Shown here one piece after another: positions 6,105 to 62,691 of a DNA stretch of 64,000 bases. Source of the DNA: Actinomadura graeca (GTDB lineage Bacteria > Actinomycetota > Actinomycetes > Streptosporangiales > Streptosporangiaceae). A model generated the notes under the pieces. It did no database searches. It saw only the letters and a program-made list of their open reading frames with translations, and was not told the DNA's origin. Location: NCBI RefSeq assembly GCF_019175365.1, contig NZ_CP059572.1:6262001-6326000 (forward strand). Direction: 5' to 3'. Every line of letters begins with the position of its first letter. Position 1 is the stretch's first letter. The translations under genes were made by a program, and so were the position numbers.

Positions 6105-7589
6105 TCAGATTCCGCTTTCGCCGAACCAGCCCGCCAGCTTGCCGCGTCGGCTGACCGCACGCAGGCGGCGTTCGGTCGTCTCCCGTACCGCATCGGTGGT
6201 CACGACCAGGAGGGTGTCACCCGATTGCAGAGGCGTGGTGGGTTCCGGGACGAAGCTCGACCCGTTCCGCACGACCAGGGTGACGGACGCGCCCGGAGGC
6301 AGCCGCAGTTCGAAGATCTCCACACCGCTCAGCTGCGAATCGGACGGGATCCGCACTTCCAGCAGGTCCGCGTGGAGTTCCTCCAGGGGCGCCGCTTCCA
6401 CGTCCAGTTCGCGTGCCTGCTCGTCGCTTTCCAGACGGCACCAGCGCGCCACAAGGGGCAGCGTGGGGCCCTGCAAGAGCGTGAACACCACGACGATCGT
6501 GAAGACGATGGAGAACAGCCGTCCGGCGTCGGGGACCTCCTTCACCATGGGGATGGTGGCGAGGACGATCGGGACGGCGCCGCGCAGGCCCGCCCAGGAC
6601 GCGAACAGCTTCTCGCCCCACGTCAGCCTGAAACCGATCGTCGACAGCACCACCGACACCGGGCGGGCGACCAGCAGCAGGATGAACCCGATCACCAGTG
6701 CGGGGACGATCTGCCCGGGCAGTTCGCTGGGCGACGCCAGGAGCCCGAGCATCACGAACAGCCCGATCTGGGCGAGCCAACCGATCCCCTCTGCGAAACC
6801 ACGTGTGGCGGGTCTGTGGGGTAGACGCGCGTTGCCCAGGACGAGCGCGCTGACGTATACGGCGAGGAATCCGCTGGCGTGCAGCAGCGTGGCCGCGCCG
6901 TAGGAGCCGACGGACAGCGACAAGACGGCGATGGGGTAGAGGCCGGACGCGGGCAGTGCCATGCGGCGCAGCGCCTGCGCGCCCAGCCAGCCGATGGCGA
7001 TGCCGATCAGGCCGCCGGCGATCAGCTCGTACACCATGACGCCGAACAGCTCGGCGAGGTTCGGGGCGGCCGCGTGCGAGCTGAGCGTGATCACGATGAT
7101 CACGACGGGGGCGTCGTTGAAGCCGGACTCCGCCTCCAGCAGCCCGGTCAGCCGGGACGGCAGCGGGAGGCGGCGCAGCACCGAGAACACGGCGGCCGCG
7201 TCGGTCGGGGCGAGCACCGCGGCCAGCAGGAACGCGGGCCGCCAGTCCAGGTCGATCAGCCACATGGCGGCGGCCGCCACCACCACGATGCTGATCAGGG
7301 TGCCGAGGGTGGACACGCTGAGCGCGGCGGGCACCGAGGGCCGCACGTGCCGCCAGCTGGTGGTGATGCCTCCCTCGGCCAGGATGAGGACGAGGGCGGC
7401 GAGGCCGAGCGTCTCGGCCAGCTCGGCGTTGTCGAAGTCGATGTGGAGGGGGCCGGACTCGCCGATGAGAAGGCCGAGGCCCATGTACGCCAGCAGGGTG
7501 GGCAGGCCCGCCTGGTGCGACAGCCTGACCGCGACGATGGCGCTGAGTACGAGCGTGGCCCCGAGGAGTAGCCAGATGTCTAGGTGCAC
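6105..7589 (-). CDS. CPA1-type cation/proton antiporter with RCK-C domain
   Basis: A 494-residue antiporter resembling NhaP2/CvrA, which exchange K+ or Na+ for protons at the cytoplasmic membrane. Twelve or so membrane segments span residues 1-390. They include 'MGLGLLIGE', 'LAAVLAPTDAAAVFSVLRRL' (the conserved transport Asp region) and 'ESGFNDAPVVIIVI' with the ND pair. Residues ~400-475 form a TrkA_C/RCK_C domain ('LEVRIPSDSQLSGVEIFEL' to 'LQSGDTLLVVTT') that binds a regulatory ligand. The GTG at 7589 is chosen because the protein then begins 'VHLDIWLLLGATL', as in relatives; a longer ATG start at 7640 exists. It is followed by no partner gene. Confidence 0.88.
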   Translation of the reverse strand: MHLDIWLLLGATLVLSAIVAVRLSHQAGLPTLLAYMGLGLLIGESGPLHIDFDNAELAETLGLAALVLILAEGGITTSWRHVRPSVPAALSVSTLGTLISIVVVAAAAMWLIDLDWRPAFLLAAVLAPTDAAAVFSVLRRLPLPSRLTGLLEAESGFNDAPVVIIVITLSSHAAAPNLAELFGVMVYELIAGGLIGIAIGWLGAQALRRMALPASGLYPIAVLSLSVGSYGAATLLHASGFLAVYVSALVLGNARLPHRPATRGFAEGIGWLAQIGLFVMLGLLASPSELPGQIVPALVIGFILLLVARPVSVVLSTIGFRLTWGEKLFASWAGLRGAVPIVLATIPMVKEVPDAGRLFSIVFTIVVVFTLLQGPTLPLVARWCRLESDEQARELDVEAAPLEELHADLLEVRIPSDSQLSGVEIFELRLPPGASVTLVVRNGSSFVPEPTTPLQSGDTLLVVTTDAVRETTERRLRAVSRRGKLAGWFGESGI

Positions 7590-8004
7590 ATCCCGCCCTT
7601 CCGGGGTCGTCAAAGTTGATCGTTTAGGAATCCTACACATTCATGGAGAAATCGCACACTTGTGGTTGAGGGACAGGATGTCGCGGGCGCTGTCCGGCAT
7701 CGCTTGACCTGCGGGTTTACCCCGTTCACAACGTTCTGCACCTCGCGCCCCGTACGGCCCCGGCGATGTCGTCGCGCCCAGGCGACAAGCTTCGGCCGCC
7801 ACCGGGCGGCCTTGTGTGCCGTTCCGTCCGCCGCAGATCCGCCTCGTCCGCCTCCGTCCGCCTCCGTGTGCCTCCGTCTGCCTCCGTCCGCCGCAGATTC
7901 GCATCCGCATGGACCGGAAGCCGCGTGAGCGGCGAGGGCGCAGAATGGCCCAAAGCGGCCACGTCCGCAGGTCAGGCAGGGTGCGGATGGACCGGTCGCA
8001 CTGA
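7590..8004. other. Spacer upstream of the antiporter, no gene
   Basis: Carries the upstream region of the antiporter and the 10-base tandem repeat. Open frames across it translate to Arg-rich repeats and are not credible. No clear promoter was recognised. Confidence 0.4.
7842..7890. repeat. 10-bp tandem repeat (CCTCCGTCYG)
   Basis: About five units of a 10-base repeat (CCTCCGTCCG, CCTCCGTGTG, CCTCCGTCTG, CCTCCGTCCG and a shorter first copy). They are bracketed by a direct repeat TCCGTCCGCCGCAGAT at 7823-7838 and 7884-7899. It lies in the spacer between the antiporter and the cyclo-ligase and probably arose by slippage. Confidence 0.7.
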
Positions 8005-8619: not shown

Positions 8620-9525
8620 ATGGCCGACATTGCACCAGTGCTCAAAGCGGTCGTCCCGGCGGCCGGCCTCGGTACCCGATTCTTGCCCGCCACCAAGGCG
8701 ACACCCAAGGAAATGCTGCCGATCGTCGATAAACCGGCGATCCAGTACGTCGTCGAGGAGGCGGTCGATGCCGGCCTCACCGACGTCCTCATGGTCACCG
8801 GACGCAGCAAGCGGTCCATCGAGGACCACTTCGACCGCGCCTACGAGCTGGAGGAGGCGCTGCGCGCCAAGGGCGACGACGAGCGGCTCGGCGCCGTCCG
8901 CGAGTCCAGCGAGCTGGCGATCATGCACTACGTCCGGCAGGGCGAGCCGCGCGGCCTCGGGCACGCGGTGCACTGCGCGCGCCAGCACGTCGGCCGCGAG
9001 CCGTTCGCGGTCCTGCTGGGCGATGACATGATCGACGCCCGCGACCAGCTGCTCAAGCGGATGATCGAGGTCCGCGGGCAGCACGGCGGCAGCGTCGTGG
9101 CGCTGATGGAGGTGGAGCCCGACCAGGTCTCGTCCTACGGCTGCGCCGCCATCGAGGCCACCGGCGAGGACGACGTCGTCCGCATCAGCGACCTCGTCGA
9201 GAAGCCCGCCCCCGACGAGGCGCCGAGCAACTGGATCATCATCGGCCGGTACGTCTGCGACCCGGCGGTCTTCGACGTGCTGGAGAAGACCCCGCCCGGC
9301 CGCGGCGGCGAGATCCAGCTGACCGACGCGCTGCGCACCCTCGCCGACACCCCCGCCGACCAGGGCGGCGGCGTGTTCGGGGTCAAGTTCCGCGGCCGCC
9401 GCTACGACACGGGCAACAAGCTGGAGTACCTGCGGACGGTCGTCCAGTTCGCCTCCGAGCGTCCCGACCTGGCGCCGGAGTTCATGCCGTGGCTGCGCGA
9501 GTTCGTCCGCCAGCACGATCAGTGA
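8620..9525 (+). CDS. galU: UTP--glucose-1-phosphate uridylyltransferase
   Basis: A 301-residue GalU. It makes UDP-glucose from UTP and glucose-1-phosphate for cell-wall glycans and glycogen. The nucleotide-binding start 'VVPAAGLGTRFLPATKATPKEMLP' and the 'DKPAIQYVVEEAVDAG' segment are diagnostic. Also present are 'VLLGDDMID' (metal-binding Asp), 'LVEKP' and 'GRYVCDPAVFDVLEKTPPGRGGEIQLTDA'. Length matches the family. It is followed by glp/moeA, moaC and mog, a common actinobacterial order. Confidence 0.96.
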   Translation: MADIAPVLKAVVPAAGLGTRFLPATKATPKEMLPIVDKPAIQYVVEEAVDAGLTDVLMVTGRSKRSIEDHFDRAYELEEALRAKGDDERLGAVRESSELAIMHYVRQGEPRGLGHAVHCARQHVGREPFAVLLGDDMIDARDQLLKRMIEVRGQHGGSVVALMEVEPDQVSSYGCAAIEATGEDDVVRISDLVEKPAPDEAPSNWIIIGRYVCDPAVFDVLEKTPPGRGGEIQLTDALRTLADTPADQGGGVFGVKFRGRRYDTGNKLEYLRTVVQFASERPDLAPEFMPWLREFVRQHDQ

Positions 9526-9706
9526 TCTCCCCGTCCCGCGCTGACGGCCGGTCTCCGGGCCGGCCCGCCCGGTCGTCCCGGCCCGCCCGGTCGTGCCGGT
9601 CGTCCCGGACCGCCCGGACGGTCCGGTCGCGGGACGGGATGGCGGTGCGCGGCGGCGTGGGATGCGCCGGGGACCCCGGACGACACGTCAGACTGTGTGC
9701 GTGGGC

Positions 9707-10915
9707 ATGAGATCGGTCGACGAGCATCTGACGGACATCCTCGGCAGCGTCCCCGTCCTGGCGCCGCTCGATCTGGCGTTGCTGGAGGCGCAGGGGACGG
9801 TGCTCGCCGAGCCTGTCTCCGCGCCCGTGCCGCTGCCGCCGTTCGACAACTCCGCGATGGACGGCTACGCCGTGGTCGCCTCCGACATCGCGGGCGCCAC
9901 CGAGGCGGAGCCGGTCGTCCTGCCGGTCGTCGGGGACATCCTCGCGGGCGACCCCGGCGTGTCCGCGATCCGGCCGGGGCTGACCGCGCGGATCATGACG
10001 GGCGCGCCGATGCCCGCCGGGGCCGACGCCGTCATACCGGTCGAGTGGACGGACGGCGGCAACGCCACCGTGCGGGTCTCGCGTCCGGCGTCGCCGGGCA
10101 ACTACATCCGCCGCGCGGGCGAGGACGTCCTCGCCGGGCAGGTCGTCGCGGACGCGGGCACCCGGCTCGGCGCCGCGCAGATCGGCATGATCGCCGCCGT
10201 GGGCCGGTCCCGCGCCGTCGTCCGGCCGCGGCCGCGCGTCGTCGTGCTGTCCACGGGGACGGAGCTGCGGGAACCCGGCGAGCGGCTCGGCGACGGCCAG
10301 ATCTGGGAGTCCAACTCCTTCATGCTGACGGCCGCCGTCGTCGAGGCGGGCGGCGTCGGCTACCGGCAGGCGACGGTCGAGGACGAGCCCGCGAAGGTCA
10401 TGGAGGCCCTGCGGGACCAGCTCGTCCGCGCGGACGCCATCGTCACCTCCGGGGGCGTCTCGATGGGGACCCGCGACGTCGTCAAGGAGGTGCTGAGCGG
10501 CACCGGGACGGTCGAGTTCCACAAGGTGCGGATGCGTCCCGGCAGGCCCCAGGGCTTCGGGCTGCTCGAAGGCGTCCCGGTCTTCACGCTCCCCGGCAAC
10601 CCCGTCAGCGCCTACGTCTCCTTCCAGGTCTTCGTCCGTCCTGCGCTGCGCGCCATGCAGGGGCTGGGTCCCGAGCCGCTGCCGACGGTCAGCGCCGTTC
10701 TCGGGGCGGACGTCAAGTCCCCGGCGGGGCTGCGCCACTACGTCCGCGGGCGGCTCTCCTTCAACCGCGGCCACTACGCCGTCACCCCGGCCGACGGGCA
10801 GGGCTCGCACCAGCTCGGCTCGCTCTCGTCCGCCGACGCGCTCATCGTGCTGCCGGAGGAGGCCGAGGCCATGCCCGCCGGTTCCCACGTCGATGTGATG
10901 AGGTTGCCGTCATGA
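9707..10915 (+). CDS. glp: MoeA-like molybdotransferase / divisome factor Glp
   Basis: A 402-residue MoeA/gephyrin-E family protein. MoeA ligates molybdate to molybdopterin-AMP; the actinobacterial paralogue Glp is also reported to act with GlpR and Wag31 at the divisome. Signatures are 'PPFDNSAMDGYAV' (domain III), 'LAGDPG', 'GEDVLAGQVV', 'VLSTGTELREPGE' and 'TSGGVSMGTRDVVKEVL' (molybdopterin-binding domain). 'VFTLPGNPVSAYVSFQVF' and a C-terminal domain IV complete the protein. The ATG at 9707 is chosen because it gives the conserved 'RSVDEHLTDIL' start. The stop overlaps moaC (ATGA). A SepX/GlpR-like gene lies at 17675, supporting the Glp reading. Confidence 0.88.
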   Translation: MRSVDEHLTDILGSVPVLAPLDLALLEAQGTVLAEPVSAPVPLPPFDNSAMDGYAVVASDIAGATEAEPVVLPVVGDILAGDPGVSAIRPGLTARIMTGAPMPAGADAVIPVEWTDGGNATVRVSRPASPGNYIRRAGEDVLAGQVVADAGTRLGAAQIGMIAAVGRSRAVVRPRPRVVVLSTGTELREPGERLGDGQIWESNSFMLTAAVVEAGGVGYRQATVEDEPAKVMEALRDQLVRADAIVTSGGVSMGTRDVVKEVLSGTGTVEFHKVRMRPGRPQGFGLLEGVPVFTLPGNPVSAYVSFQVFVRPALRAMQGLGPEPLPTVSAVLGADVKSPAGLRHYVRGRLSFNRGHYAVTPADGQGSHQLGSLSSADALIVLPEEAEAMPAGSHVDVMRLPS

Positions 10916-11403
10916 GCGCAATGGGCACCGAATTCACCCACCTGGACGAGAAGGGCGCGGCCCGCATGGTCGACGTCTCGTCCAAGAACGTCTCCTCCCG
11001 CACCGCCACGGCGACGGGTTTCGTCCGGTTGTCCGCCGAGTGCGTCGCCGCGCTGCGCGCGGGGGACATGCCGAAGGGCGACGCCCTCTCCGTGGCGCGC
11101 ATCGCCGGGATCATGGGCGCCAAGCGCGTCCCCGACCTCGTCCCGCTGTGCCATCCCATCGCGCTGCACGGCGTCACCGTGGACCTCGCCATCGAGGACG
11201 AGGGTGTGGCGATCACCGTCACCACGCGGACCGCGGACCGGACGGGCGTCGAGATGGAAGCCCTCACCTCCGTCTCCGTCGCCGCGCTCGCCCTGGTCGA
11301 CATGGTGAAGGCCGTCGATCCCGCCGCCGTCATCACCGACGTCAGGGTCGAGGAGAAGACCGGCGGCAAGACCGGCGTCTGGCGCCGCCCTGACTCCCCC
11401 TGA
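10912..11403 (+). CDS. moaC: Cyclic pyranopterin monophosphate synthase MoaC
   Basis: A 163-residue MoaC, which converts 3',8-cyclo-7,8-dihydro-GTP to cPMP in molybdenum-cofactor synthesis. Conserved parts are 'FTHLDEKGAARMVDVS', 'GDALSVARIAGIMGAKR', 'LVPLCHPIAL' (catalytic His region), 'GVEMEALTSVSVAALALVDM' and the end 'KTGGKTGVWRR'. The ATG overlaps the glp stop, so the genes are translationally coupled. No moaA, moaD or moaE lies nearby. Confidence 0.95.
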   Translation: MSAMGTEFTHLDEKGAARMVDVSSKNVSSRTATATGFVRLSAECVAALRAGDMPKGDALSVARIAGIMGAKRVPDLVPLCHPIALHGVTVDLAIEDEGVAITVTTRTADRTGVEMEALTSVSVAALALVDMVKAVDPAAVITDVRVEEKTGGKTGVWRRPDSP

Positions 11404-11472
11404 GGTCCCCGGCGGGGTCGGGAGCGACGGCGGTGAGGACGGCGAGGACGGTGCGGGCGGGACGGTGAAGGG

Positions 11473-11964
11473 ATGACGATGCGGGCGATGGCGGTGACGG
11501 TGTCGAACCGGGCGGCGGCGGGCGTGTACGCCGACAGGTCCGGGCCGGTGCTGGTGGAGATGCTGGAGGATCTCGGCTGCCAGGTGGACGGGCCCGTGGT
11601 CGTCCCGGACGGCGAGCCGGTCGCCGGTGTCCTGCGGGACGCGGTGCGCGACGGCTACGACGTGGTCGTGACCACCGGCGGGACGGGCCTCACCCCGACC
11701 GACCGGACGCCCGAGATGACGCGGCCGGTGCTGGAGCGCGAGATCCCCGGCCTGGCGGACGCCATCCGGTCGGAGGGACGCGACCAGGTCCCCACGGCGA
11801 TCCTGTCGCGGGGCCTGGCCGGTGTCGCGGGCCGCACGCTGATCGTCAACCTGCCGGGCTCGACGGGTGGGGTCCGCGACGGCATGACCGTCCTCGGGCG
11901 CGTCCTGGCGCACGCCGTCGACCAGATCCGCGGCGGCGACCACCCCCGTCCCGCCGCGCACTGA
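11473..11964 (+). CDS. MogA/MoaB-family molybdenum cofactor protein
   Basis: A 163-residue MoCF-domain protein. These adenylylate molybdopterin (Mog/MoaB) before metal insertion. It has 'AVTVSNRAAAGVYADRSGP' at the N-terminus, the 'DVVVTTGGTGLTPTDRTPE' molybdopterin-binding loop, and 'LIVNLPGSTGGVRDGM' near the end. GAAGGG precedes the ATG. It is 69 bases after moaC and probably co-transcribed. The DeoR gene is convergent and ends 24 bases downstream of its stop. Confidence 0.9.
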   Translation: MTMRAMAVTVSNRAAAGVYADRSGPVLVEMLEDLGCQVDGPVVVPDGEPVAGVLRDAVRDGYDVVVTTGGTGLTPTDRTPEMTRPVLEREIPGLADAIRSEGRDQVPTAILSRGLAGVAGRTLIVNLPGSTGGVRDGMTVLGRVLAHAVDQIRGGDHPRPAAH

Positions 11965-11988
11965 GCGGCCCCCTCCGGGCGCGGCGCG

Positions 11989-12774
11989 TCAGGCCCGGAT
12001 CACCCGGACACCCGCCTCGGTGAAGGCCGCCACGTCGTCCTCGGCGACGGTGCCGTCCGTCACCAGGACGTCGATCCGGGACGTGTCGCAGATCTTGGCG
12101 AACGCGCGGCGGCCGATCTTGGAGCCGTCCGCCACCACGACGATCTTCTCGGCGCGCTCGGCCATGAGGCGGTTGACGTCCGCCTCGCCCTCGTTGTGGC
12201 AGGTGGCGCCGTGCTCCACGGCCACCCCGTACACGCCGAGGATCGCGACGTCCAGCGTCACGTGGTCGAAGATGCCGGTGGCGAGCGGGCCGGTCAGCTC
12301 GTAGGACTGCGGCCGGGGCACCCCGCCCGTCAGGACGATCTTGACGTGCGGCCGGACGGCCAGCTCGTTGCCGATGTTGAGCGCGTTCGTCACGATCGTG
12401 ATCGCCGGGGACGCGCCCTCGGCGTGCAGGTCGGCGCGGGTGGCGAGGGCCCGCGCGACCTCGGAGGTCGTCGTCCCGCCGTTCAGCCCGATGACCGAGC
12501 CGGGACGCGCGAGCTCGGCGGTGGCGGCCGCGATCAGCTGCTTCTCCGAGGCGTGCCGCGCGCTCTTGTAGCGCAGCGGCAGGTCGTAGCTGACGTTCTG
12601 CGCGACGGCGCCGCCGCGCGTGCGGGTGAGCATCTGCTGCTGCGCGAGCTGGTCGAAGTCGCGGCGGATCGTGGCGGCCGACACCTTCATCCGCGCGGCG
12701 GCCTCCTCGACGGTCAGCCGCCCCGCCTCCGACAGCAGTTCCAGGAGCGCGTTCCAGCGCTCATGCCTGGCCAC
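11989..12774 (-). CDS. DeoR/GlpR-family repressor of the amino-sugar operon
   Basis: A 261-residue DeoR-family regulator. Residues 1-60 form the winged HTH ('RHERWNALLELLSEAGRLTV' then 'AATIRRDFDQLAQQQMLTRTRGGA'). The C-terminal DeoRC sensor domain binds sugar phosphates ('VIGLNGGTTTSEVARAL', 'TNALNIGNELAV', 'ILGVYGV', 'VVADGSKIGRRAF'). It is divergent from the SIS-nagA-pfkB-aldolase operon, so an AgaR-like repressor relieved by an amino-sugar or tagatose phosphate is the natural inference. The inducer is not determined. Confidence 0.88.
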   Translation of the reverse strand: MARHERWNALLELLSEAGRLTVEEAAARMKVSAATIRRDFDQLAQQQMLTRTRGGAVAQNVSYDLPLRYKSARHASEKQLIAAATAELARPGSVIGLNGGTTTSEVARALATRADLHAEGASPAITIVTNALNIGNELAVRPHVKIVLTGGVPRPQSYELTGPLATGIFDHVTLDVAILGVYGVAVEHGATCHNEGEADVNRLMAERAEKIVVVADGSKIGRRAFAKICDTSRIDVLVTDGTVAEDDVAAFTEAGVRVIRA

Positions 12775-12854
12775 GCAAGCCCTCCTCCGCGCGTGCGGGC
12801 GCCGGTGCGGGCCTGGGCAGGGGGGCCGGGGATCGGACGGACATGCGGGGCGAG

Positions 12855-54124: not shown

Positions 54125-54829
54125 TCAGTACACGCTGACGCCGAAGGCGCTGAGGACCTCGCCGACCGGCTGGAAGTAGGACGTCCCGCCGCTGCCGCAG
54201 GTGCCGCTGCCGCCGACGCCCAGCCCGACCGCGAGCGAGCCGGAGAAGTAGGGCGCGCCGGCGGTGTCGCCGGGCTCCGCGCAGATGGTCGTCCTGGCCA
54301 GCCCGGTCATGGTGCCCTCGGGGAAGTTCACGGTCAGGCCGACCGCCGTCACCGAGCCGCAGCGCATGCCGGTGATGGGGCCGCTGCGGCAGACCCGCCG
54401 TCCCACGGCCGGGACGTCCGCCGCCGTGATGTCCTGCGACCCGGGGTGGGTGTGCACGCTTCCGGGCCTTTCCACCTGCGGCTCGACGTAGCGGACGAGT
54501 GCGACGGCGTTGGCGGTGACGGCGACGACCGTGCCGAGCTCGATCGTCAATGCCGGATCGCCGTAGATCTTCAACCCGGTCTTCGCGCAGCCGCCCGCGG
54601 TGAGGAAGTGGTGGTCGCCGCCTTTGCGGACGTTGAAGCCGAGGGTGCAGCGGACGCCGCCGCCGGCGAAGACGGGCCGTCCGCCCTCGCCGCCCGGCGC
54701 GGCGGTCGCACGGGACACGGTGGACGCGGTCGTGGTGGACGCGGTCGTGGTGGACGCGGTCGCGGTCGTGGCGGGGACGGCCAGGAGTGCGATGACGGCC
54801 GCGGCCGTCATGAGGATGCGGGATCTCAC
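54125..54829 (-). CDS. Secreted streptogrisin-like protein lacking the catalytic triad
   Basis: A 234-residue exported protein. A signal peptide (~1-24) and a Thr/Ser/Ala linker precede a chymotrypsin-fold domain starting 'VRCTLGFNVRKGGDHHFLTA'. The backbone is that of streptogrisin B/alpha-lytic proteases, with six Cys (61, 81, 147, 157, 183, 211) in disulfide positions and the end 'TSYFQPVGEVLSAFGVSVY'. The triad is gone: the His of TAGHC is Gly80, the Asp of NDYGIVRY is Ala108, and GDSGGP has become GDTAGAP (189-193). There is no pro-domain. Start GTG 54829 after AGGAG. It is probably a binding protein or inhibitor-like decoy. Confidence 0.85.
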   Translation of the reverse strand: MRSRILMTAAAVIALLAVPATTATASTTTASTTTASTVSRATAAPGGEGGRPVFAGGGVRCTLGFNVRKGGDHHFLTAGGCAKTGLKIYGDPALTIELGTVVAVTANAVALVRYVEPQVERPGSVHTHPGSQDITAADVPAVGRRVCRSGPITGMRCGSVTAVGLTVNFPEGTMTGLARTTICAEPGDTAGAPYFSGSLAVGLGVGGSGTCGSGGTSYFQPVGEVLSAFGVSVY

Positions 54830-55011
54830 GGGAGTCTCCTGCGGGAGTAAGTGCCCGGCGGTGTTTCCCGGATGATGCGGAGGTTCGCCGGCCCCGGCCA
54901 AGAGAGGAAAGTGCCAAGGTTCCGGGCGGCCGGCTGTCAACAGCGCGCGTCCGTCCGGCCACAGTGCGCAGCCGTCGGCGGAGGCGGCGTGGACGTGGCT
55001 AGGGTTGGCCC
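54830..55011. other. Divergent spacer, no gene
   Basis: 182 bases between the streptogrisin-like and DUF3052 genes. TAGGGT (54998-55003) ends 8 bases before the GTG of the latter, a leaderless-style -10 box. Confidence 0.4.
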
Positions 55012-55464: not shown

Positions 55465-56376
55465 TCAGCGGCCCTTGCGGAGATGGCGGGTCACCTGCCT
55501 GCCCTCGGGGGTGGTGAGGGGGCCGAAGCTGTCCGGCGGGACGGTGCCCAGGGTGATGGCCAGGGTGCGGCCGTGCAGGTCCAGGGCGGCCTCGGCGAGG
55601 TCGGTCAGCTCGGCCAGCGCGGCGCGGGCGCGGGTCCATCCCGTCAGGCCCACGGTGAGCGCGATCAGGAGGGCCGGCCACCACCAGAGGCCCAGGACGA
55701 GGTAGGGCAGCGCCCAGGCGGCGGTGACCACCGTGGCGGCGAACTGGCCGTTGGCGGCGACCAGCTCGGCGCGGACGGTGTCGGGCAGGACCAGCCAGAG
55801 GCGGGACCAGCCGAACCGGAGGTCCAGCCCGTAGCGATCGACGGCGATCTGGTCGACGGCGGCCACGCGGTCGCCCATCCAGGTGGGACGGGCGGGGACG
55901 GCGAGGGCCAGCCGGTTGACGCGGTCCGCCGCGGCGTCGATCGCGGCCTGCTGGCCGGACGTGCGGGTCGCCTTCGGATGGCGGTCCTGGAGTTCCCTGC
56001 GGGCCGCCACCAGCCGGTGCCAGCGTGCGGCCCGCGCGGCGGTGCGGCGGCGTCCGGCCCAGCGCAGCCCCGGCGGCCACTGCCCCAGCCACCAGGCGCG
56101 GACGGGGCCGGTGAGCGCCTGGACCACCAGGCCGACGCCGCAGGAGGCGAGGAGCAGCCCGGCGAGGACCAGCACGCGGTACGGCCCGGGCTTCCCGCCC
56201 AGGGTGGACCCGAGCGCCGTCGCCTTCGAGGCCAGGAGGCCCGTGTCGAGGGCGTGGCCCCACCCGAGCCGGACGCCGGCCCACGCGCACGCGACGAACA
56301 GCAGGCCCGGGACGGCGAGGAGGCCCACCCAGCGTTCGGCCAGCTTCTTCGCCAGCTCACCGAAGAAGTTGCCCAC
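55465..56376 (-). CDS. Multi-pass membrane protein of the CHAT cassette
   Basis: A 303-residue membrane protein without an established name. The N-terminus is 'MGNFFGELAKKLAERWVGLL'. Membrane segments lie at ~16-36, ~66-88 and, after a ~130-residue cytoplasmic helical region, at ~215-245. The cytoplasmic part has 'RPTWMGDRVAAVDQIAVDRY' and 'LDLRFGWSRLWLVLPDTVRA'. I recall similar unnamed actinobacterial proteins near CHAT-protease genes but cannot verify this here. It starts 4 bases after the stop of the Cys-motif gene, so they form one operon, divergent from WD40-CHAT. Confidence 0.75.
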   Translation of the reverse strand: MGNFFGELAKKLAERWVGLLAVPGLLFVACAWAGVRLGWGHALDTGLLASKATALGSTLGGKPGPYRVLVLAGLLLASCGVGLVVQALTGPVRAWWLGQWPPGLRWAGRRRTAARAARWHRLVAARRELQDRHPKATRTSGQQAAIDAAADRVNRLALAVPARPTWMGDRVAAVDQIAVDRYGLDLRFGWSRLWLVLPDTVRAELVAANGQFAATVVTAAWALPYLVLGLWWWPALLIALTVGLTGWTRARAALAELTDLAEAALDLHGRTLAITLGTVPPDSFGPLTTPEGRQVTRHLRKGR

Positions 56377-56380
56377 GCCG

Positions 56381-56749
56381 TCAGCGCCCGGACATCGGCA
56401 GGCCGGTGAGCACGCAGTGCGGGACGGGACCGGCGGGGACGGCGACGGCCGTCCGGTCGCAGGCGCCGTCGGGGCAGCCGAAGCGCTCCTCGTCGGCCCG
56501 GCCGGGTCCGGCGCCCGGCAGCCCGGCGCCCAGGCCGCGCACGGCGCCGGTGTCCTCCGCGCCCGTGCCCAGCAGCTCGCCGAGCAGCGCCAGGATCGGC
56601 CGGCGGGCGCGGGCCTCGGCCTCGATCCGGGTCAGGAGCAGCCGCTTGTCCTCCGGCTCCGCGGCGCACTGCTCCCGCAGCGCCGGCAGTTCGTCGCACA
56701 ACGCGCTCAGCGCCACTCGTTCGGCGGGATTACCGCGCATTTCCTCCAC
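56381..56749 (-). CDS. Small helical protein with C-terminal Cys motif
   Basis: A 122-residue protein. Residues 1-70 are helical ('ERVALSALCDELPALREQCA', 'RLLLTRIEAEARARRPILAL'). After a Gly-rich linker the C-terminus reads 'ERFGCPDGACDRTAVAVPAG' then 'PHCVLTGLPM'. The CPxxxCxR...PxC pattern looks like a zinc-knuckle used as a docking tail. It is the first gene of a two-gene operon with the membrane protein, divergent from the WD40 gene (96-base gap). Probably part of the same system; role unknown. Confidence 0.7.
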   Translation of the reverse strand: MEEMRGNPAERVALSALCDELPALREQCAAEPEDKRLLLTRIEAEARARRPILALLGELLGTGAEDTGAVRGLGAGLPGAGPGRADEERFGCPDGACDRTAVAVPAGPVPHCVLTGLPMSGR

Positions 56750-56825
56750 GGGACGGGAACGTTATCCTTCGGCGGCGGGAGGACGTCAAGTCCCGATTCT
56801 CCAAGCCCCGTAACCCGTACCGGCC

Positions 56826-56848
56826 GCGCGGTTAGGATTCTGCGGGTG
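56826..56848 (+). promoter_or_regulatory. Leaderless-type promoter of the WD40-CHAT operon
   Basis: TAGGAT (56833-56838) ends 7 bases before the GTG start at 56846 with no ribosome-binding site between, the typical spacing for a leaderless transcript. No clear -35. Confidence 0.45.
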
Positions 56849-58672
56849 GAGAACGAGGACATCGCCCTTGACGAGGGGCGGTACCGGCCCGTCGCGCAAT
56901 GGGCGCTGACGGATCACGGTCCCATGGACGGCCCCGTGAACGTCCAGGTCGGGACGCTTTCCGACGGGAGATGGTACGTCCGGCACATGGGGTTCGGCAC
57001 CCGCGCGTTCGACGGGAAGCAGGCCGCCTGGGACGCGGCGCGCGGGCTGATGGGCCGGCACGAGGGCCGGTGGGAGAGCGTCGCCGCCGACTCCGCGCCG
57101 TTCCTGGCGGTGTGCCGCGCCGACGGGTCGCGGGTCCTCTACGACATCAACGACGACGCGTGCCTGTACGGGTGCTGGGGCGACCAGAGGGACCGGCTCT
57201 GGGACGCCCACCTCGCCGCGATCAGCGCGGGCACGACGCTGCGCAGCACCGAGACCCACAAGATCTTCGGCGGGTACATCGAGGTCGTCGCCTATGACGA
57301 TCCGCTGGACGGCGTCCGGCGGCACGCGGTCGTCACGGCCCGCGATCCCGGATCGGACTACCGCGCGGTCGACCATCTCGACCGCGCGGCGGCCGAGGTG
57401 GAATATGAGGAGACCGTGTACGCCAATTGGGACATGGACTTCCCCTACAAGGCCACAGACATCTTCGATATACAGGTCGATCGCAAATCGAAGCGCTCAG
57501 GCGATGTCGCGATGCTCGATGACGGGACCATCCTCGACAAGGGCGACCTGGACGAATACAACCGCCTCTACGGCCTGCCTCCGCGCATGGAATGGCCGAA
57601 GACGCCCGGTCCCTCCGTTCCTTTGGGCCCGGTGGGCGCGATGACGGCCGGGCCGAGGGACTGGGCGCCGTCCGTGGACGTCGAGGACATGACCCCGGCC
57701 GCCTGGACGCTCGCGGACCCGGAGCTGCGCGCCAACGCGCTGTCCCTCGCCGCGCTGCCCGACGGCCGGAGGCTGCTGGCCTCGGCGCACGATGACGGCG
57801 CCCACGTCTGGAGCATCGGCGGCGGGGAGGGCGTCCAGCGGGTGTCCGGGCACAGCGAGTGGGTGCTGTCGGTCGCCCTGACGGTGCTCGGTGACGGCCG
57901 GGCCGTTCTGGCGACGGGCGGCAAAGACGGACTCGCCCGCGCGTGGTCGGTGCGGGAGGGCGAGGCCCTCCAGGAGATCGAGGCGCACGACGGCCCCGTC
58001 AACTCCGTCGCCTGGGCCTGCCCGCCGGGAGAGGTGCCCTGGCTGGTCACGGGCGGGGACGACGCGGCGGTGCGCCTCTGGGACCCCGGGACGAAGCTGC
58101 CGCTCGGCGCCTTCGAGGTGGGGGAGCCGCGCGTCCATCTGGTGTGGTCGGTGGCGGCGGCCGCGCTGTCGGACGGTCACGTGTGCGTGGCCGCCGCGGT
58201 CGACGACTTCGACGGCGCCGCCGTGCACGTGTGGGACGCCACGGCCAAGGCGAAGCTGCACGAGTTCCGCGTCGAGACCGGCGGCGCGCTCTCGCGGATG
58301 CCCGAGGTGGCCGTGACGACCCTGGCCGACCACTCGTTCCGGGTCGCGGCGGTCGCGGGGCGCACCCTGCACGTGTGGGACGGCCACACCGGGCGGGCCG
58401 TCCGGACCCTGCAGGTGTCGGAGGACGGCGACTCGGGCGTCGCGCTGGCCGCGCTGCCCGACCTGCGCGCGGTCGTCGCGGCCACCAGCGGCCGGGAGAC
58501 GCTGGCCTGGGACGTCGAGTCGGGCGCCGTCCTCGCCAGGGTGGAGCACGCGGCGGGCGGGCTGCCGCAGACCGTGGACCTGGTGGCCGGGCAGGACGGC
58601 GGGCTCCTGCTCGCGGCCGGCCGCGGCGGCGACGCCCCGGCGCGCGTCCTGCGGCTGGACCCGGCCCGGTAG
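56846..58672 (+). CDS. WD40-repeat protein with novel N-terminal domain
   Basis: A 608-residue protein. Residues ~1-250 form a globular region I do not recognise ('YRPVAQWALTDHGPMDGPVN', 'RWYVRHMGFGTRAFDGKQAA', 'SRVLYDINDDACLYGCWGDQ', 'YANWDMDFPYKATDIFDIQV'). Residues ~295-608 form a seven-bladed WD40 propeller: 'ASAHDDGAHVWSIGGG', 'ATGGKDGLARAWSV', 'TGGDDAAVRLWDPG', 'GAAVHVWDAT', 'AGRTLHVWDG' and two degenerate blades. WD40 propellers act as scaffolds or sensors. It is 15 bases upstream of the CHAT gene, so both are one operon. Confidence 0.85.
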   Translation: MENEDIALDEGRYRPVAQWALTDHGPMDGPVNVQVGTLSDGRWYVRHMGFGTRAFDGKQAAWDAARGLMGRHEGRWESVAADSAPFLAVCRADGSRVLYDINDDACLYGCWGDQRDRLWDAHLAAISAGTTLRSTETHKIFGGYIEVVAYDDPLDGVRRHAVVTARDPGSDYRAVDHLDRAAAEVEYEETVYANWDMDFPYKATDIFDIQVDRKSKRSGDVAMLDDGTILDKGDLDEYNRLYGLPPRMEWPKTPGPSVPLGPVGAMTAGPRDWAPSVDVEDMTPAAWTLADPELRANALSLAALPDGRRLLASAHDDGAHVWSIGGGEGVQRVSGHSEWVLSVALTVLGDGRAVLATGGKDGLARAWSVREGEALQEIEAHDGPVNSVAWACPPGEVPWLVTGGDDAAVRLWDPGTKLPLGAFEVGEPRVHLVWSVAAAALSDGHVCVAAAVDDFDGAAVHVWDATAKAKLHEFRVETGGALSRMPEVAVTTLADHSFRVAAVAGRTLHVWDGHTGRAVRTLQVSEDGDSGVALAALPDLRAVVAATSGRETLAWDVESGAVLARVEHAAGGLPQTVDLVAGQDGGLLLAAGRGGDAPARVLRLDPAR

Positions 58673-58687
58673 CGGGCGGGGCGCCCG

Positions 58688-61600
58688 ATGCCGCTCGACG
58701 AGCTGACCGCGAGGGCGGAGGACCTCGTCCGGGAGTACGAGGCGACCCGCGACCGGGGCGTGCTCTTCTCCGCGGAGGCGGACCGGGACGCGGCGGCGCT
58801 GTGGACGGCGGTGCGGGCGGTCGACCTCGACACCGCGTCCCCGTGGCTCGACGCCCGGTTCACGGCGGCGAGCACCGTGCTCGGACGCCTGCACCACCTG
58901 CGGTACCGCGCGGCGGGGGAGGGACGCGGGCTCGCCGACCTGGCCAGGGCGCTGCTGTGCCTGGAACCCGTCGCCGACGACTACCACGCCGTCCCGCTGG
59001 ACGTGAACACCCTGGTCGGGCGTGCCACGCACGCCGAGGACCAGGCGGAGACGGGGACGGTGCTGCTGCGCGCCTCGGCGGGCGGCGGCTCCGACCCGGC
59101 GCTGCTGGACGCGGCCATCCTGCTGATGGAACCGGCCGCCGGGGCGGCGCCCCGGCGCGGGCTCGTCCGTGGCGCCCGGCTGTCGCACCTGTGCCTGGCC
59201 TTCCGCCGCCGTCATGAACGCGACGGGACGGCGGCGGACCTCGACCGGGCCGTCGCCGCGGGGGAGGAGTCCGTGGCGATCGCGGACGCGCACGGCGAGG
59301 AGGCCACCGAGCCGTGGGCCCACCTCGCCCGCGCGTACCGGTGCCGGTACCTGCTGCGCGGGGACGCGGCCGACCTGCGGCGCGTCATCGACCTGTTCGA
59401 GCGGGTCCTGGACATGGAGGGGCCCAGCGCCGCGCTCCTGTCGGACCTGGGGACGGCCTACCGGGACCACCACGGGCACACCGGCGACCCCGCGCACATC
59501 GAGAAGGCGGTGGACCTGGCGGAACGGGCGGCGGCGCTGCCCGGCGGCGAGGCCGGCACGGGTGTCCTCGCCGGTCTCGGCCGCTCCCTGCTGCGCCGCT
59601 ACGAGACCTCCGGCGCGAAGGCGGATCTGTGGCGGGCCGCCGAGATCGGCGAGCGCGTCGTGGCGGCGCTGCCGGACGGTGACCCCGAGGGGCCCGGCCA
59701 CCTCGCGTCCGTCGCGTCCGTCCTGCTCGAACGGCACAGGCACGGGCAGGCCCCGGGCGACCTGGACCGCGCCGTCGACCTCACCGAGCGGGCCCTGTCG
59801 GCGCTGCCGGAGGAGGACCCGCGCCGGCCGGACGTCCTGCGCGGCCTCGCCGCCGCGCTCCACCGGCGCTACCTGGGCACGGGCACCGGCCCCGACCTGG
59901 ACCGGGCCGCGACGCTGGGCGCCTGGGCGCTCGCGGCGATCCCGGACGGACATCCCGGACGGGCGGGCGCGTCCATGGAGCTGGCGGGAATCCACCTGAC
60001 CCGCTACGCCCGGAGCGGCGTGCTCGCCGACCTCGCCCAGGCGATCGAGCTGGGAGAGCGGGTCGCGGCAGGGACTGGGGAGACGCCGGAGTGGGCGTCG
60101 CTGCTGGGCCGCGCCTACCGCCGCCGGTACCGCGCCACCGGCGACATCGCCGACCTGGACCGTGCCATCGACCTCGGTGGGCGGGCGCTGGCGGGCACCG
60201 GCGCGGACGACGTCGCGCTGGCCGGACGGCGGGCCCGGCTCGCCGCCGCCCACCTGCGCAGGCACGCCCACGCAGGAGACCGGGCCGATCTGGAACGGGC
60301 GATCGACCTCGGCGAGAGCGCCGTGGCCGCCACCCCGGACTGCCACCTCGACCTGCCCGGACGGCTGGCCGGACTCGCCGGCGCGCGGCTGGCCCGGTAC
60401 CGCCTCGACCGGGATCCCGCCGACGTGGACGCCGCGGTCGACCTCGGCGAGCGGGCGCTGGCGGGCGTCCCGGCCGACCATCCCGAGCGGGCGGCGCTCA
60501 CGGCCGGGCTCTGCGCCGCCTACCTCGACCGTCTCGACGGCGGGGGACGCCCGCCGGGGCCGGAGCGGCTGCACGCCCTGGCGGCGGCCGCACGGGAGGC
60601 GCGGACGGTGGCCCCGGCCGACCGGGTGGCCGCCCACCATGCCGCCGGCGCGCTCGCGGAGGCCGCCGGGGACGACCGGCTCGCGGTGACCCTGCTGGAC
60701 GGCGCCGCCGCGCTGCTGCCGTCGGTCGCCCCACGCGAGGCGGGCTGGGCCGACCAGCAGCACCGGATCGGCGAGCACGGCGGGCTCGTCGGGACGGGCG
60801 TGGCCGCGCACTGCGCCGTAGGCGACGCCGCGGGCGCGGTCGAGTTCGCGGAGCTGGGCCGCGGTGTCCTTCTCGCGAGCCAGGCGAACACCCGCGCCGG
60901 CCTGGCCGCGCTGGAGGACCGCGACCCCCGCCTCGCCGGCCGGTTCCGCTGGGTGTGCGAGCGGCTCAACACGCCGGACTTCCCCGCGGGCGAGCGGCGG
61001 CGCTGGTGGGCCGACCACGACGCGCTGCTCGCCGAGATCCGCGCGCTGCCCGGCCTGGAGGGGTTCCTGGCGGCGCCGCGGCTCGCCGACCTGCGGGCCG
61101 CCGCCGAGGGCGGGTACGCGGTGCTGGTCAACGCCGGGCGGGACCGCGGCGACGCGGTGATCGTCCGCGCCGACGGCGACCCGGTCCCGGTGACGCTGCC
61201 CGGCCTGCGGCGGACGGAGGCGGAGGCGCGGGTCGCGGCGCTGCTCGCGGCGGTCGGCGGAGGCCCCTCCCTGGCCGGCGTGCTGCGCAGGCGCCGCGTC
61301 GTCCCGCAGGTGCTGGGCTGGTTGTGGGACACCGCCGTCGAGCCGGTCGCGCACGCGCTCCGCACGCTCCGCCCGCACGGGGCCGCGCGGGTGTGGTGGC
61401 TGCCGACGGGCCTGCTGGGGCTGCTGCCGCTGCACGCCGCAGGGCACCCCGGGAAGCCGGGGGCGCTCGACGCGATGGTGTCGTCGTTCGTCCCGTCCCT
61501 GCGGGCGCTGCGAGACGCCCGTGACCGTCCTCCGGCCACCTCCCGCCGCCACCTCACCGTCGCGCTGCACCACACCCCGGGGCTTCGGGACCTGCCGGGG

Positions 61601-62110
61601 GCCGCCCGCGAGGCCGCCGTGCTGGACGGCCCGGTGCTCGCCGACGAGCAGGCGACCGCCGGACGCGTCCTGTCCGCCCTCGGCGAGGCGACGTGGGCGC
61701 ACTTCGCCTGCCACGCGGTCGCCGATCCCGTCTCGCAGGCCGACGGCGGGCTGCGCCTGCACGACAGGACGCTGCGGCTCCCCGAGGTCGGAGGGCTGCG
61801 GCTGGACGGGGCGGAGCTCGCCTACCTGTCGGCCTGCTCCACCGCCGACCACGGCACCCGCTACGCCGACGAGGTCCTGCACCTGGCCTCGGCGTTCCAG
61901 TTCGCCGGGTTCCGGCACGTGGTGGCGAGCCTGTGGCCCCTGGCCGACGAGGTCGCGGTGTCCGCCGCCCGGCGCTTCTACCGGGGGCTGCCGGGCACCC
62001 CGGTCGCCGACGACGCCGCGTCCGTCCTGCACGAGGTGACGCTCGGCCTGCGGGACGAGCACCCGGACCGGCCGGATCTGTGGGCGCCCCTCGTCCACAG
62101 CGGGCCGTGA
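58688..62110 (+). CDS. TPR-CHAT caspase-like protease
   Basis: A 1140-residue protein. Residues ~190-620 hold about ten TPR/SEL1-like units with the motif 'DLxRAIDLGERAL' ('ADLDRAIDLGGRALAG', 'ADLERAIDLGESAVAA', 'ADVDAAVDLGERALAG' and others). The C-terminal CHAT domain (~800-1140) has 'ARVWWLPTGLLGLLPLHAAG'. The catalytic His1009 lies in 'HFACHAVADPVSQADGG' and the catalytic Cys1050 in 'LAYLSACSTADHGTRYADEV', with 'FAGFRHVVASLWPLADEVAV' closing the fold. Both residues are present, so the protease should be active. Such proteins are effectors in bacterial conflict or cell-suicide systems. Confidence 0.93.
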   Translation: MPLDELTARAEDLVREYEATRDRGVLFSAEADRDAAALWTAVRAVDLDTASPWLDARFTAASTVLGRLHHLRYRAAGEGRGLADLARALLCLEPVADDYHAVPLDVNTLVGRATHAEDQAETGTVLLRASAGGGSDPALLDAAILLMEPAAGAAPRRGLVRGARLSHLCLAFRRRHERDGTAADLDRAVAAGEESVAIADAHGEEATEPWAHLARAYRCRYLLRGDAADLRRVIDLFERVLDMEGPSAALLSDLGTAYRDHHGHTGDPAHIEKAVDLAERAAALPGGEAGTGVLAGLGRSLLRRYETSGAKADLWRAAEIGERVVAALPDGDPEGPGHLASVASVLLERHRHGQAPGDLDRAVDLTERALSALPEEDPRRPDVLRGLAAALHRRYLGTGTGPDLDRAATLGAWALAAIPDGHPGRAGASMELAGIHLTRYARSGVLADLAQAIELGERVAAGTGETPEWASLLGRAYRRRYRATGDIADLDRAIDLGGRALAGTGADDVALAGRRARLAAAHLRRHAHAGDRADLERAIDLGESAVAATPDCHLDLPGRLAGLAGARLARYRLDRDPADVDAAVDLGERALAGVPADHPERAALTAGLCAAYLDRLDGGGRPPGPERLHALAAAAREARTVAPADRVAAHHAAGALAEAAGDDRLAVTLLDGAAALLPSVAPREAGWADQQHRIGEHGGLVGTGVAAHCAVGDAAGAVEFAELGRGVLLASQANTRAGLAALEDRDPRLAGRFRWVCERLNTPDFPAGERRRWWADHDALLAEIRALPGLEGFLAAPRLADLRAAAEGGYAVLVNAGRDRGDAVIVRADGDPVPVTLPGLRRTEAEARVAALLAAVGGGPSLAGVLRRRRVVPQVLGWLWDTAVEPVAHALRTLRPHGAARVWWLPTGLLGLLPLHAAGHPGKPGALDAMVSSFVPSLRALRDARDRPPATSRRHLTVALHHTPGLRDLPGAAREAAVLDGPVLADEQATAGRVLSALGEATWAHFACHAVADPVSQADGGLRLHDRTLRLPEVGGLRLDGAELAYLSACSTADHGTRYADEVLHLASAFQFAGFRHVVASLWPLADEVAVSAARRFYRGLPGTPVADDAASVLHEVTLGLRDEHPDRPDLWAPLVHSGP

Positions 62111-62118
62111 CCGCCGGG

Positions 62119-62691
62119 TCAGGGCATGTGGGGGTGCGGGGTGTCGTGATCGCCGCGGTCGTCGCAGAGCATGAGCAGGATCGTGGCGCGTTCCGGGCCG
62201 AGCGAGCGGACCTTGTGCGGGTTCGTGGCCTTGAAGTAGACGGAGTCGCCCGGCTCCAGCGTGATGGAGCGGGACGGGAAGAGGAGCTCGGCGCGCCCCC
62301 GGTGCACGAACAGGAACTCCTCGCCCGGATGGTCCCGGAAGGGGACGGGACCGGCGTCGTGCGGCGGGTACAGCATGAACGGCGTCATCCGCTTGGTGCT
62401 GGCCTGGAGCGCGATGCCCTCGTAGCGTGACCCGGCCTCGTCGTCGGGCGTGAGCGGCCGCCGCTCACCGGCCCGGGTCACGGTGACGTCGGCGAGCTGC
62501 TCCGCGTCGACGAACAGGCTGTCGAGGGAGATGCCGAGGGCGCGGGCGAGCGCGGCGCTGACGGCGATGGACGGCGTGCTCTGGCCGCGCTCGACCTTGG
62601 ACAGGTAGCTCTTGGTCACGCCGGCGCGCTCGGCGAGGGCCTCCAGCGTCATGAGCCGCTCCTTGCGCAGCTCCCGCACCCGATTGATCAC
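62119..62691 (-). CDS. XRE-family regulator with cupin domain
   Basis: A 190-residue regulator. The HTH is 'MTLEALAERAGVTKSYLSKV' followed by 'ERGQSTPSIAVSAALARALG'. The cupin_2 domain has 'FRDHPGEEFLFVHRGRAELL', 'LEPGDSVYFKATNPHKVRSL' and a His-rich tail 'GDHDTPHPHMP'. The HPGEE...H pattern supports a metal site, unlike the bicupins elsewhere in the window. It is divergent from the class II aldolase/DapA operon and is its likely regulator, with the palindrome at 62760-62773 as candidate operator. Confidence 0.9.
   Translation of the reverse strand: MINRVRELRKERLMTLEALAERAGVTKSYLSKVERGQSTPSIAVSAALARALGISLDSLFVDAEQLADVTVTRAGERRPLTPDDEAGSRYEGIALQASTKRMTPFMLYPPHDAGPVPFRDHPGEEFLFVHRGRAELLFPSRSITLEPGDSVYFKATNPHKVRSLGPERATILLMLCDDRGDHDTPHPHMP

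Follow-up and report, generated by a model that had tools for sequence, protein, structure and literature searches.

CHAT proteases are relatives of separase. Among the closest described systems is Craspase/Csx29 of type III-E CRISPR. In this system (PMC9729208) a TPR array is followed by a CHAT domain with a His-Cys catalytic dyad (H585/C627), the protease is controlled by a partner and the gene for its substrate, Csx30, lies beside it; substrates of CHAT proteases are commonly the products of nearby genes. A second group of systems, described in PMC12799240, consists of proteases that activate co-encoded pro-nucleases, some of them trypsin-activated and others found in caspase-nuclease (canu) loci. 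In a canu locus a caspase-family protease is encoded together with the nuclease that it activates, and parts are swapped between systems. The MoxR-vWA ternary NTP-dependent conflict systems (PMC7159879) are likewise multi-gene systems of multicellular bacteria with recurrent beta-propellers; the term 'CHAT' is absent from the main text of that paper. Finally, the Borvo phage defence system is listed in a table row of PMC10952713 with a CHAT protease domain and without mention of a WD40 protein, a Cys protein or a membrane partner.

We analysed a window of 64,000 nucleotides from the 8.98 Mb genome of Actinomadura graeca (G000; contig 1, positions 6262001-6326000), in which four genes are arranged as two divergent pairs. 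Related TPR-S/CHAT systems may be the subject of a 2020 article by Burroughs and Aravind in J Bacteriol. The leftward pair, on the reverse strand, encodes a membrane protein (MEM, 303 aa, 55465-56376) and, 4 bases away, a Cys-motif protein (CYS, 122 aa, 56381-56749). The rightward pair, on the forward strand, encodes a WD40 protein (608 aa, GTG start, 56846-58672) and, after 15 bases, a TPR-CHAT protease (1140 aa, 58688-62110). Between the CYS and WD40 genes lies an intergenic region of 96 bases (56750-56845). All four open reading frames are intact, and the four-gene cassette with its 96-base divergent gap was confirmed as it had been given in the preliminary description. The WD40 and TPR-CHAT genes are probably co-transcribed, because the gap between them is 15 bases and two relatives carry all four genes on one strand. 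The right-hand neighbour of the unit is a regulator gene (62119-62691). The named locus most closely related to this one is that of A. macra (L031), where the unit has the same flanking neighbours.

At E<=1, PADLOC gave no match to any protein of the cassette. Pfam revealed no NTPase domain in any of them (for the WD40 protein, among the best 25 of 29 families), which bears out the earlier statement that the cassette contains none. The locus thus differs from the MoxR-vWA systems, and neither a MoxR nor a vWA match was found in the four proteins or in the three flanking genes scanned. The locus is also unlike Craspase in that the partner here is a WD40 protein, no Cas7-11-like domain was detected by Pfam in the four proteins or the three flanking genes scanned, and the NCBIfam Csx29 model scored 27.4 bits against the TPR-CHAT protein, far below its cut-off of 300. 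The protease of canu loci is a MALT1-like caspase that contains an Ig-like fold, whereas here a TPR-CHAT protein has a WD40 partner and the corresponding slot in the window holds a membrane protein in place of a nuclease.

The CHAT domain (PF12770) occupies residues 875-1139 of the TPR-CHAT protein (61310-62104, forward strand) and matched Pfam with E=1.5e-44 and 153 bits against a cut-off of 24; the same protein matched TPR-S (PF20308) with E=1e-7. The two putative catalytic residues, His1009 (codon at 61712-61714) and Cys1050 (61835-61837, both on the forward strand), are invariant in all 12 aligned sequences, the window's among them, so that the dyad is as intact as had been proposed. Pfam gave no Ig-type domain in this protein, and a PDB sequence search gave no match at E<=1e-5. 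Ten CHAT matches are present in the genome of A. graeca, and by profile an intact MEM adjoins only the copy in the window.

In the WD40 protein, WD40-type Pfam matches start only at about residue 298. Pfam and the predicted model agree on a C-terminal beta-propeller (about residues 298-608; 57737-58672, forward strand). The first 285 residues had no useful Pfam match. In the full-length model (mean pLDDT 86.4) this N-terminal domain (about residues 1-285; 56846-57700, forward strand) is of mixed alpha/beta structure and was predicted with fair confidence. An N-terminal domain of about 250 residues had been reported as unassignable, and it still belongs to no Pfam family. A Foldseek search with the whole model listed 50 matches, which judging by their titles appear to be propeller proteins, and the N-terminal profile matched PDB sequences with a best E of 0.16. 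In a profile comparison, roughly the first 90 residues proved to be related (98.6%) to a small protein that stands alone in two other genomes (L121/L122). For the N-terminal domain against WGR, the hhalign probability was at most 1.1%. In a profile comparison with three DUF2188 sequences, the WD40 first part scored 5% and the stand-alone relatives 57%; in Pfam, the L121 protein matched DUF2188 at E=0.079, below the cut-off.

Relatives of the WD40 protein number 59, its own copy and partial sequences included (P0005-P0063; 7995 candidates scored). After P0063 the score drops from 297 to 129 bits, which sets these relatives apart from ordinary WD40 proteins. No relatives were found on plasmids at E<=1e-30. 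Within the genus, 6 of 65 genomes carry the N-terminal domain, that of A. graeca among them. Class-wide, a full match was found in 2 of 394 genomes (own included), together with one fragment, and the family of Dactylosporangium aurantiacum gave a full match in 4 of 250 genomes plus two small partial relatives. The domain is therefore rare and patchy in its distribution. Most matches in the 110 of 200 family genomes listed are confined to the propeller; of these matches we used only the window, G131 and the G097 fragment.

We also compared the gene neighbourhoods of the relatives. A contig scan gave 16 loci, 11 of them with a full-length WD40 protein; the other five (L041, L043-L046) had a propeller match only and were left out, as was L013/L094 (G097), a fragment of the WD40 N-terminal domain. 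The 11 loci together with the window, G131 (L002/L147, the same locus), G267 (L072), G580 (L119) and G569 (L120) make 16 distinct loci. L036/G849, L037/G814, L038/G853 and L031/G821, taken as identical from their contig positions, were each counted once. In all 16 the TPR-CHAT gene lies directly downstream of the full-length WD40 gene, and in 12 of them (the window, L147, L031, L032, L035-L040, L072 and L120) CYS and MEM adjoin this pair. The preliminary description would have been refuted had homologues of the four genes seldom been adjacent in other genomes; this condition does not hold. Three further loci (L033, L034 and L119) carry an Mrr-type nuclease instead of CYS and MEM. The remaining locus, Micromonospora okii L042, has neither CYS and MEM nor Mrr beside WD40-CHAT. 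Ten of the 12 complete loci have CYS-MEM divergent from WD40-CHAT. In the other two, Amycolatopsis vancoresmycina L039 and Actinokineospora auranticolor L040, the genes follow one another on the same strand in the order CYS-MEM-WD40-CHAT. With script-chosen starts, MEM runs 4 bases into WD40 in L039, and the gaps along the four genes of L040 are at most 4 bases.

Pairwise distances of the WD40 and CHAT proteins are correlated with r=0.961 over the 16 loci, and those of the other pairs of parts with r=0.83-0.93 over the 12 complete loci; these correlations partly reflect shared species history. In each case none of 2000 permutations gave a value as high. Neighbourhood and co-variation together show that the four genes are one evolutionary unit whose parts evolve together. 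Averaged over the 12 complete loci, identity rises from 0.51 in both the TPR region and the N-terminal part of the WD40 protein, through the propeller (0.57), CYS (0.63) and MEM (0.64), to CHAT (0.68). The low values of the first two would be compatible with a role in recognition.

MEM is predicted to be all-helical (pLDDT 91.7), with about four hydrophobic segments (residues 17-35, 68-86, 212-230 and 226-244). Four such segments were present in 9 of 10 rows of the MEM alignment and three in the remaining row, and the C-terminal RKGR is invariant in all ten. MEM belongs to no Pfam family, its best match among PDB sequences had an E of 0.42 and a Foldseek comparison of its model with the PDB gave no match at E<=0.001. 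It bears no convincing likeness to any solved pore or channel. Bacterial gasdermin systems pair a protease with an adjacent membrane-damaging effector; the gasdermin fold would probably differ from that of MEM, which is predicted to be all-helical. At least 649 homologues of MEM were found at E<=0.001 among 7995 candidates scored. CYS consists of an N-terminal part followed by a C-terminal Cys motif, GRADE..FGCPDGACDR...VPAGP.P.C..TG..M, and its sole Pfam match, of coiled-coil type, stayed under the threshold (E=0.11).

Class-wide, the MEM profile gave 25 matches in 18 of 296 genomes. We examined 20 regions covering 21 of these matches; besides the window, three matches were left out. A CHAT gene adjoins MEM in 17 of the 20 regions, and in 16 of the 19 that lack the WD40 protein, which was found in only one of the 20 (L072). 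The TPR profile also matched in 15 of the 17 CHAT-bearing regions, the exceptions being L080 and L084; L085 has CHAT and TPR fragments beside MEM on a short contig. No CHAT gene lies beside MEM in L075 or in L088, which is a broken copy in the genome of A. graeca itself. Directly upstream of MEM we found a Cys-motif protein in all 20 regions, in L072 by profile and in the other 19 by eye from translated frames. Its motif has the form CP..xC.R...P.C or, in some families, CP.GDY.WYRP...P.C..H; in the broken L088 it departs from CP. MEM is present on plasmids in seven records. In all three plasmid loci examined, each from Streptomyces, MEM is accompanied by a 'CHAT domain-containing protein' together with a hypothetical protein of about 124 aa; in two of the three the CYS profile matched, and in two transposase genes are close to MEM-CHAT.

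By these neighbourhoods, CHAT, CYS and MEM form a broad three-gene core, of which the WD40 protein marks one branch. In this respect the earlier interpretation is not borne out as worded: WD40 does not define the cassette, since CHAT, CYS and MEM are common without it (16/19 class-wide regions and 3/3 plasmid loci). The association was counted starting from MEM, not from CHAT. That CHAT usually adjoins MEM while WD40 is optional is, seen from MEM's side, how a shared receptor might behave. In such a scheme CYS and MEM would be a membrane-side receptor or anchor: MEM would perceive a membrane or envelope disturbance, CYS would relay it, WD40 would hold or scaffold CHAT, and CHAT would kill by degrading cell proteins. 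We consider this unlikely. The TPR region and the WD40 N-terminus are the least conserved parts (0.51 each, versus 0.64 for MEM), and recognition suits them better than it suits MEM. In addition, a nuclease takes the place of CYS and MEM in one clade, and nucleases act as effectors, not as receptors. Moreover, relatives of this nuclease accompany other proteins of the CHAT or caspase type.

The nuclease gene, with a Mrr_cat domain, lies at the same divergent position in D. aurantiacum, Dactylosporangium siamense and G580 (Pfam E=1.3e-11, 1.5e-11 and 6.7e-12), and CYS and MEM are absent from all three loci. Residues D64, E81-x-K83 and Q95 are kept in all six rows of the Mrr alignment. The layout of canu loci is found in this variant (3 of 16 loci) and not in the four genes of the window; 'Mrr' does not occur in the main text of PMC12799240. 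Because L033, L034 and L119 group in a single clade (100% support), the exchange would count as one event. It is likely that CYS and MEM were replaced by Mrr, in that direction, short of proof because the nodes that place the Mrr clade among the CYS-MEM loci have a support of 44 and 48 and the tree was rooted at its midpoint.

We looked for relatives of the nuclease in 200 genomes from the family of D. aurantiacum and, class-wide, in 394. Eight matches were stronger (>100 bits over most of the query). Three of the eight are the WD40-CHAT loci. Two (G673 and G357) adjoin a TPR-CHAT gene without WD40, and one (G680) adjoins a gene whose product combines a caspase domain with a helicase matching HamB models of PADLOC. 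The relative in G613 lies by a helicase fragment near a contig end, with no protease part in view, and the first match in G443 adjoins a transposase gene. Among the weak matches, G586, G450 and the second match in G443 had no CHAT-profile match in the stretches examined. A short fragment with an internal stop in G711 had no CHAT-profile match nearby either, and none of these four matches was counted as a pair. Judging from these neighbours, the Mrr nuclease tends to accompany caspase-type proteases. The pairing of nuclease and protease thus extends beyond one event, because Mrr relatives adjoin both WD40-less TPR-CHAT and a caspase protein with a HamB-like helicase.

The Mrr loci may instead show a loss of CYS and MEM and an unrelated insertion. 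Mrr beside WD40-CHAT would then be a chance neighbour and there would be no common effector slot, CYS and MEM being merely lost, as in M. okii, where no nuclease has taken their place. The confinement of the exchange to one clade, and hence to one event, agrees with this explanation. It is nevertheless improbable in our view, since Mrr relatives adjoin other CHAT and caspase proteins and all three genomes retain Mrr in the same position. CYS and MEM had been described as an adaptor and a membrane partner. As neighbours of WD40-CHAT they are real (12/16), and the finding of a nuclease in their place in three relatives speaks for an effector slot. The nuclease exchange favours MEM as a putative effector rather than a receptor.

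The unit lies at different chromosomal sites in different genomes. G852, G849, G854, G855 and G827 carry the right-hand regulator and the next gene on its far side, but the unit does not adjoin them; in G827 these two genes are about 4 kb apart, and in G849 (A. geliboluensis, an inferred match) the unit is on a different contig from them. Patchy presence (6/65 genomes) and different sites are what fits a conflict gene set. A module for regulated proteolysis or developmental signalling in filamentous actinomycetes, in which CHAT would process a few house proteins and no conflict would be involved, agrees with the occurrence in actinomycetes, with a co-variation of all parts that looks vertical and with the fact that known defence genes were not noticed beside the cassette. 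Its presence in only 6 of the 65 genomes of the genus, its different chromosomal sites, the core on plasmids near transposase genes and the replacement of CYS and MEM by a nuclease all speak against such a module, and we regard it as distinctly improbable.

We put at about even the chance that the unit is a protease-triggered conflict system, probably anti-phage or programmed-death, with an exchangeable effector. The WD40 and TPR-CHAT proteins would be an obligate recognition-protease pair, presumably in a physical complex, in which the WD40 protein would 'sense and gate' the protease. CHAT would be activated by a trigger that is perceived by the N-terminal domain of the WD40 protein, by its propeller and/or by the TPR array; by cleaving the product of a neighbouring gene, CHAT would set the effector free. 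That CHAT acts on CYS/MEM or on Mrr is inferred from the position of Csx30, the Csx29 substrate, beside Csx29 and from the trypsin- and caspase-activated nucleases. In the window the effector slot would be filled by CYS and the four-segment MEM. CYS, a proposed adaptor or inhibitor, may hold MEM in check or recruit it, and cleaved or released MEM may damage or depolarise the membrane. In the Mrr clade the slot would hold the nuclease, which CHAT would activate to damage DNA. An anti-phage role is a guess from the kind of system and its distribution. Several observations count against this reading: the exchange within the WD40 branch is confined to one weakly placed clade, the M. okii locus has neither CYS and MEM nor Mrr, only 1 of ten CHAT matches in the genome of A. 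graeca has an intact MEM by profile, MEM lacks a convincing likeness to a solved pore or channel, and PADLOC gave no match to the four proteins. We hold only tentatively, at somewhat less than even chances, the full proposal of a so far undescribed immune system of actinomycetes whose TPR-CHAT protease is under WD40 control and can fire either of two interchangeable effectors, a four-segment MEM of a new family guarded by CYS or a Mrr pro-nuclease, the CHAT-CYS-MEM core being a large unnamed family that occurs also without WD40 and on plasmids.

A unit of WD40, TPR-CHAT, Cys-motif and membrane proteins was not met in the literature, judged by titles and abstract openings, and on the same basis neither was a WD40-CHAT-Mrr unit; we do not claim that either is absent from print. 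CHAT, TPR-S, WD40 and Mrr are already known kinds. In the literature searched we recognised neither their combination nor the exchange of effectors, nor the MEM and CYS families, which lack Pfam entries. The analysis raises a testable question, whether MEM is what CHAT lets loose. If the proposal is true, CHAT proteases would be tied to a large uncharacterised family of membrane proteins (at least 649 homologues), and the same sensor-protease pair could be re-armed with a nuclease. It would also provide a handle on the role of the 'hypothetical' gene pairs beside CHAT genes in actinomycetes.

The genome of the window (G000) contains ten matches to CHAT that exceed the Pfam cut-off. In the search with the MEM profile, just 1 of these 10, the one in the window, proved to have a membrane-protein partner that is intact. 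A second CYS and MEM gene pair, which is broken, lies at 6793-7713 of locus L088 (G000:C1:8296000-8310500). This copy sits behind a TPR-like gene, and more CHAT matches are found within about 50 kb of the locus, at 8256172, 8263720 and 8318892. In the window itself, the protein encoded at 54125-54940 on the minus strand is one that we take to resemble a secreted streptogrisin-type serine protease, in which the usual catalytic motifs seem to be altered; a Pfam scan of this protein gave no match above the cut-off.

Among the cores of CHAT, CYS and MEM genes without a WD40 gene, that in L073 carries a separate TPR protein after the CHAT gene (11198-12409, with TPR_10/TPR_12 matches). An ORF comparable in position and size follows the CHAT gene in L074 (12095-13243), and together the two are possibly another variable partner.

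The WD40 N-terminal domain also has relatives elsewhere. Stand-alone small proteins of about 95 residues, kin to the first part of the domain, are encoded on the minus strand in L121 (8308-8673) and L122 (8816-9169); the full domain was not found in the genomes carrying them, G639 and G562. A fragment of the domain occurs at 1333-2406 of L013 (G097:C7), in an ORF whose remainder does not match it. This fragment is probably what is left of a decayed copy of the gene unit.

In L156 (G680:C1:2423000-2442000), the stretch 9022-12832 holds a gene for a fusion protein, in which a caspase domain at the N-terminus is joined to a HamB-like DEAD helicase. After it comes a gene related to the Mrr-type nuclease that elsewhere substitutes for CYS and MEM. 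This arrangement looks like a Hachiman-related protease-nuclease variant.
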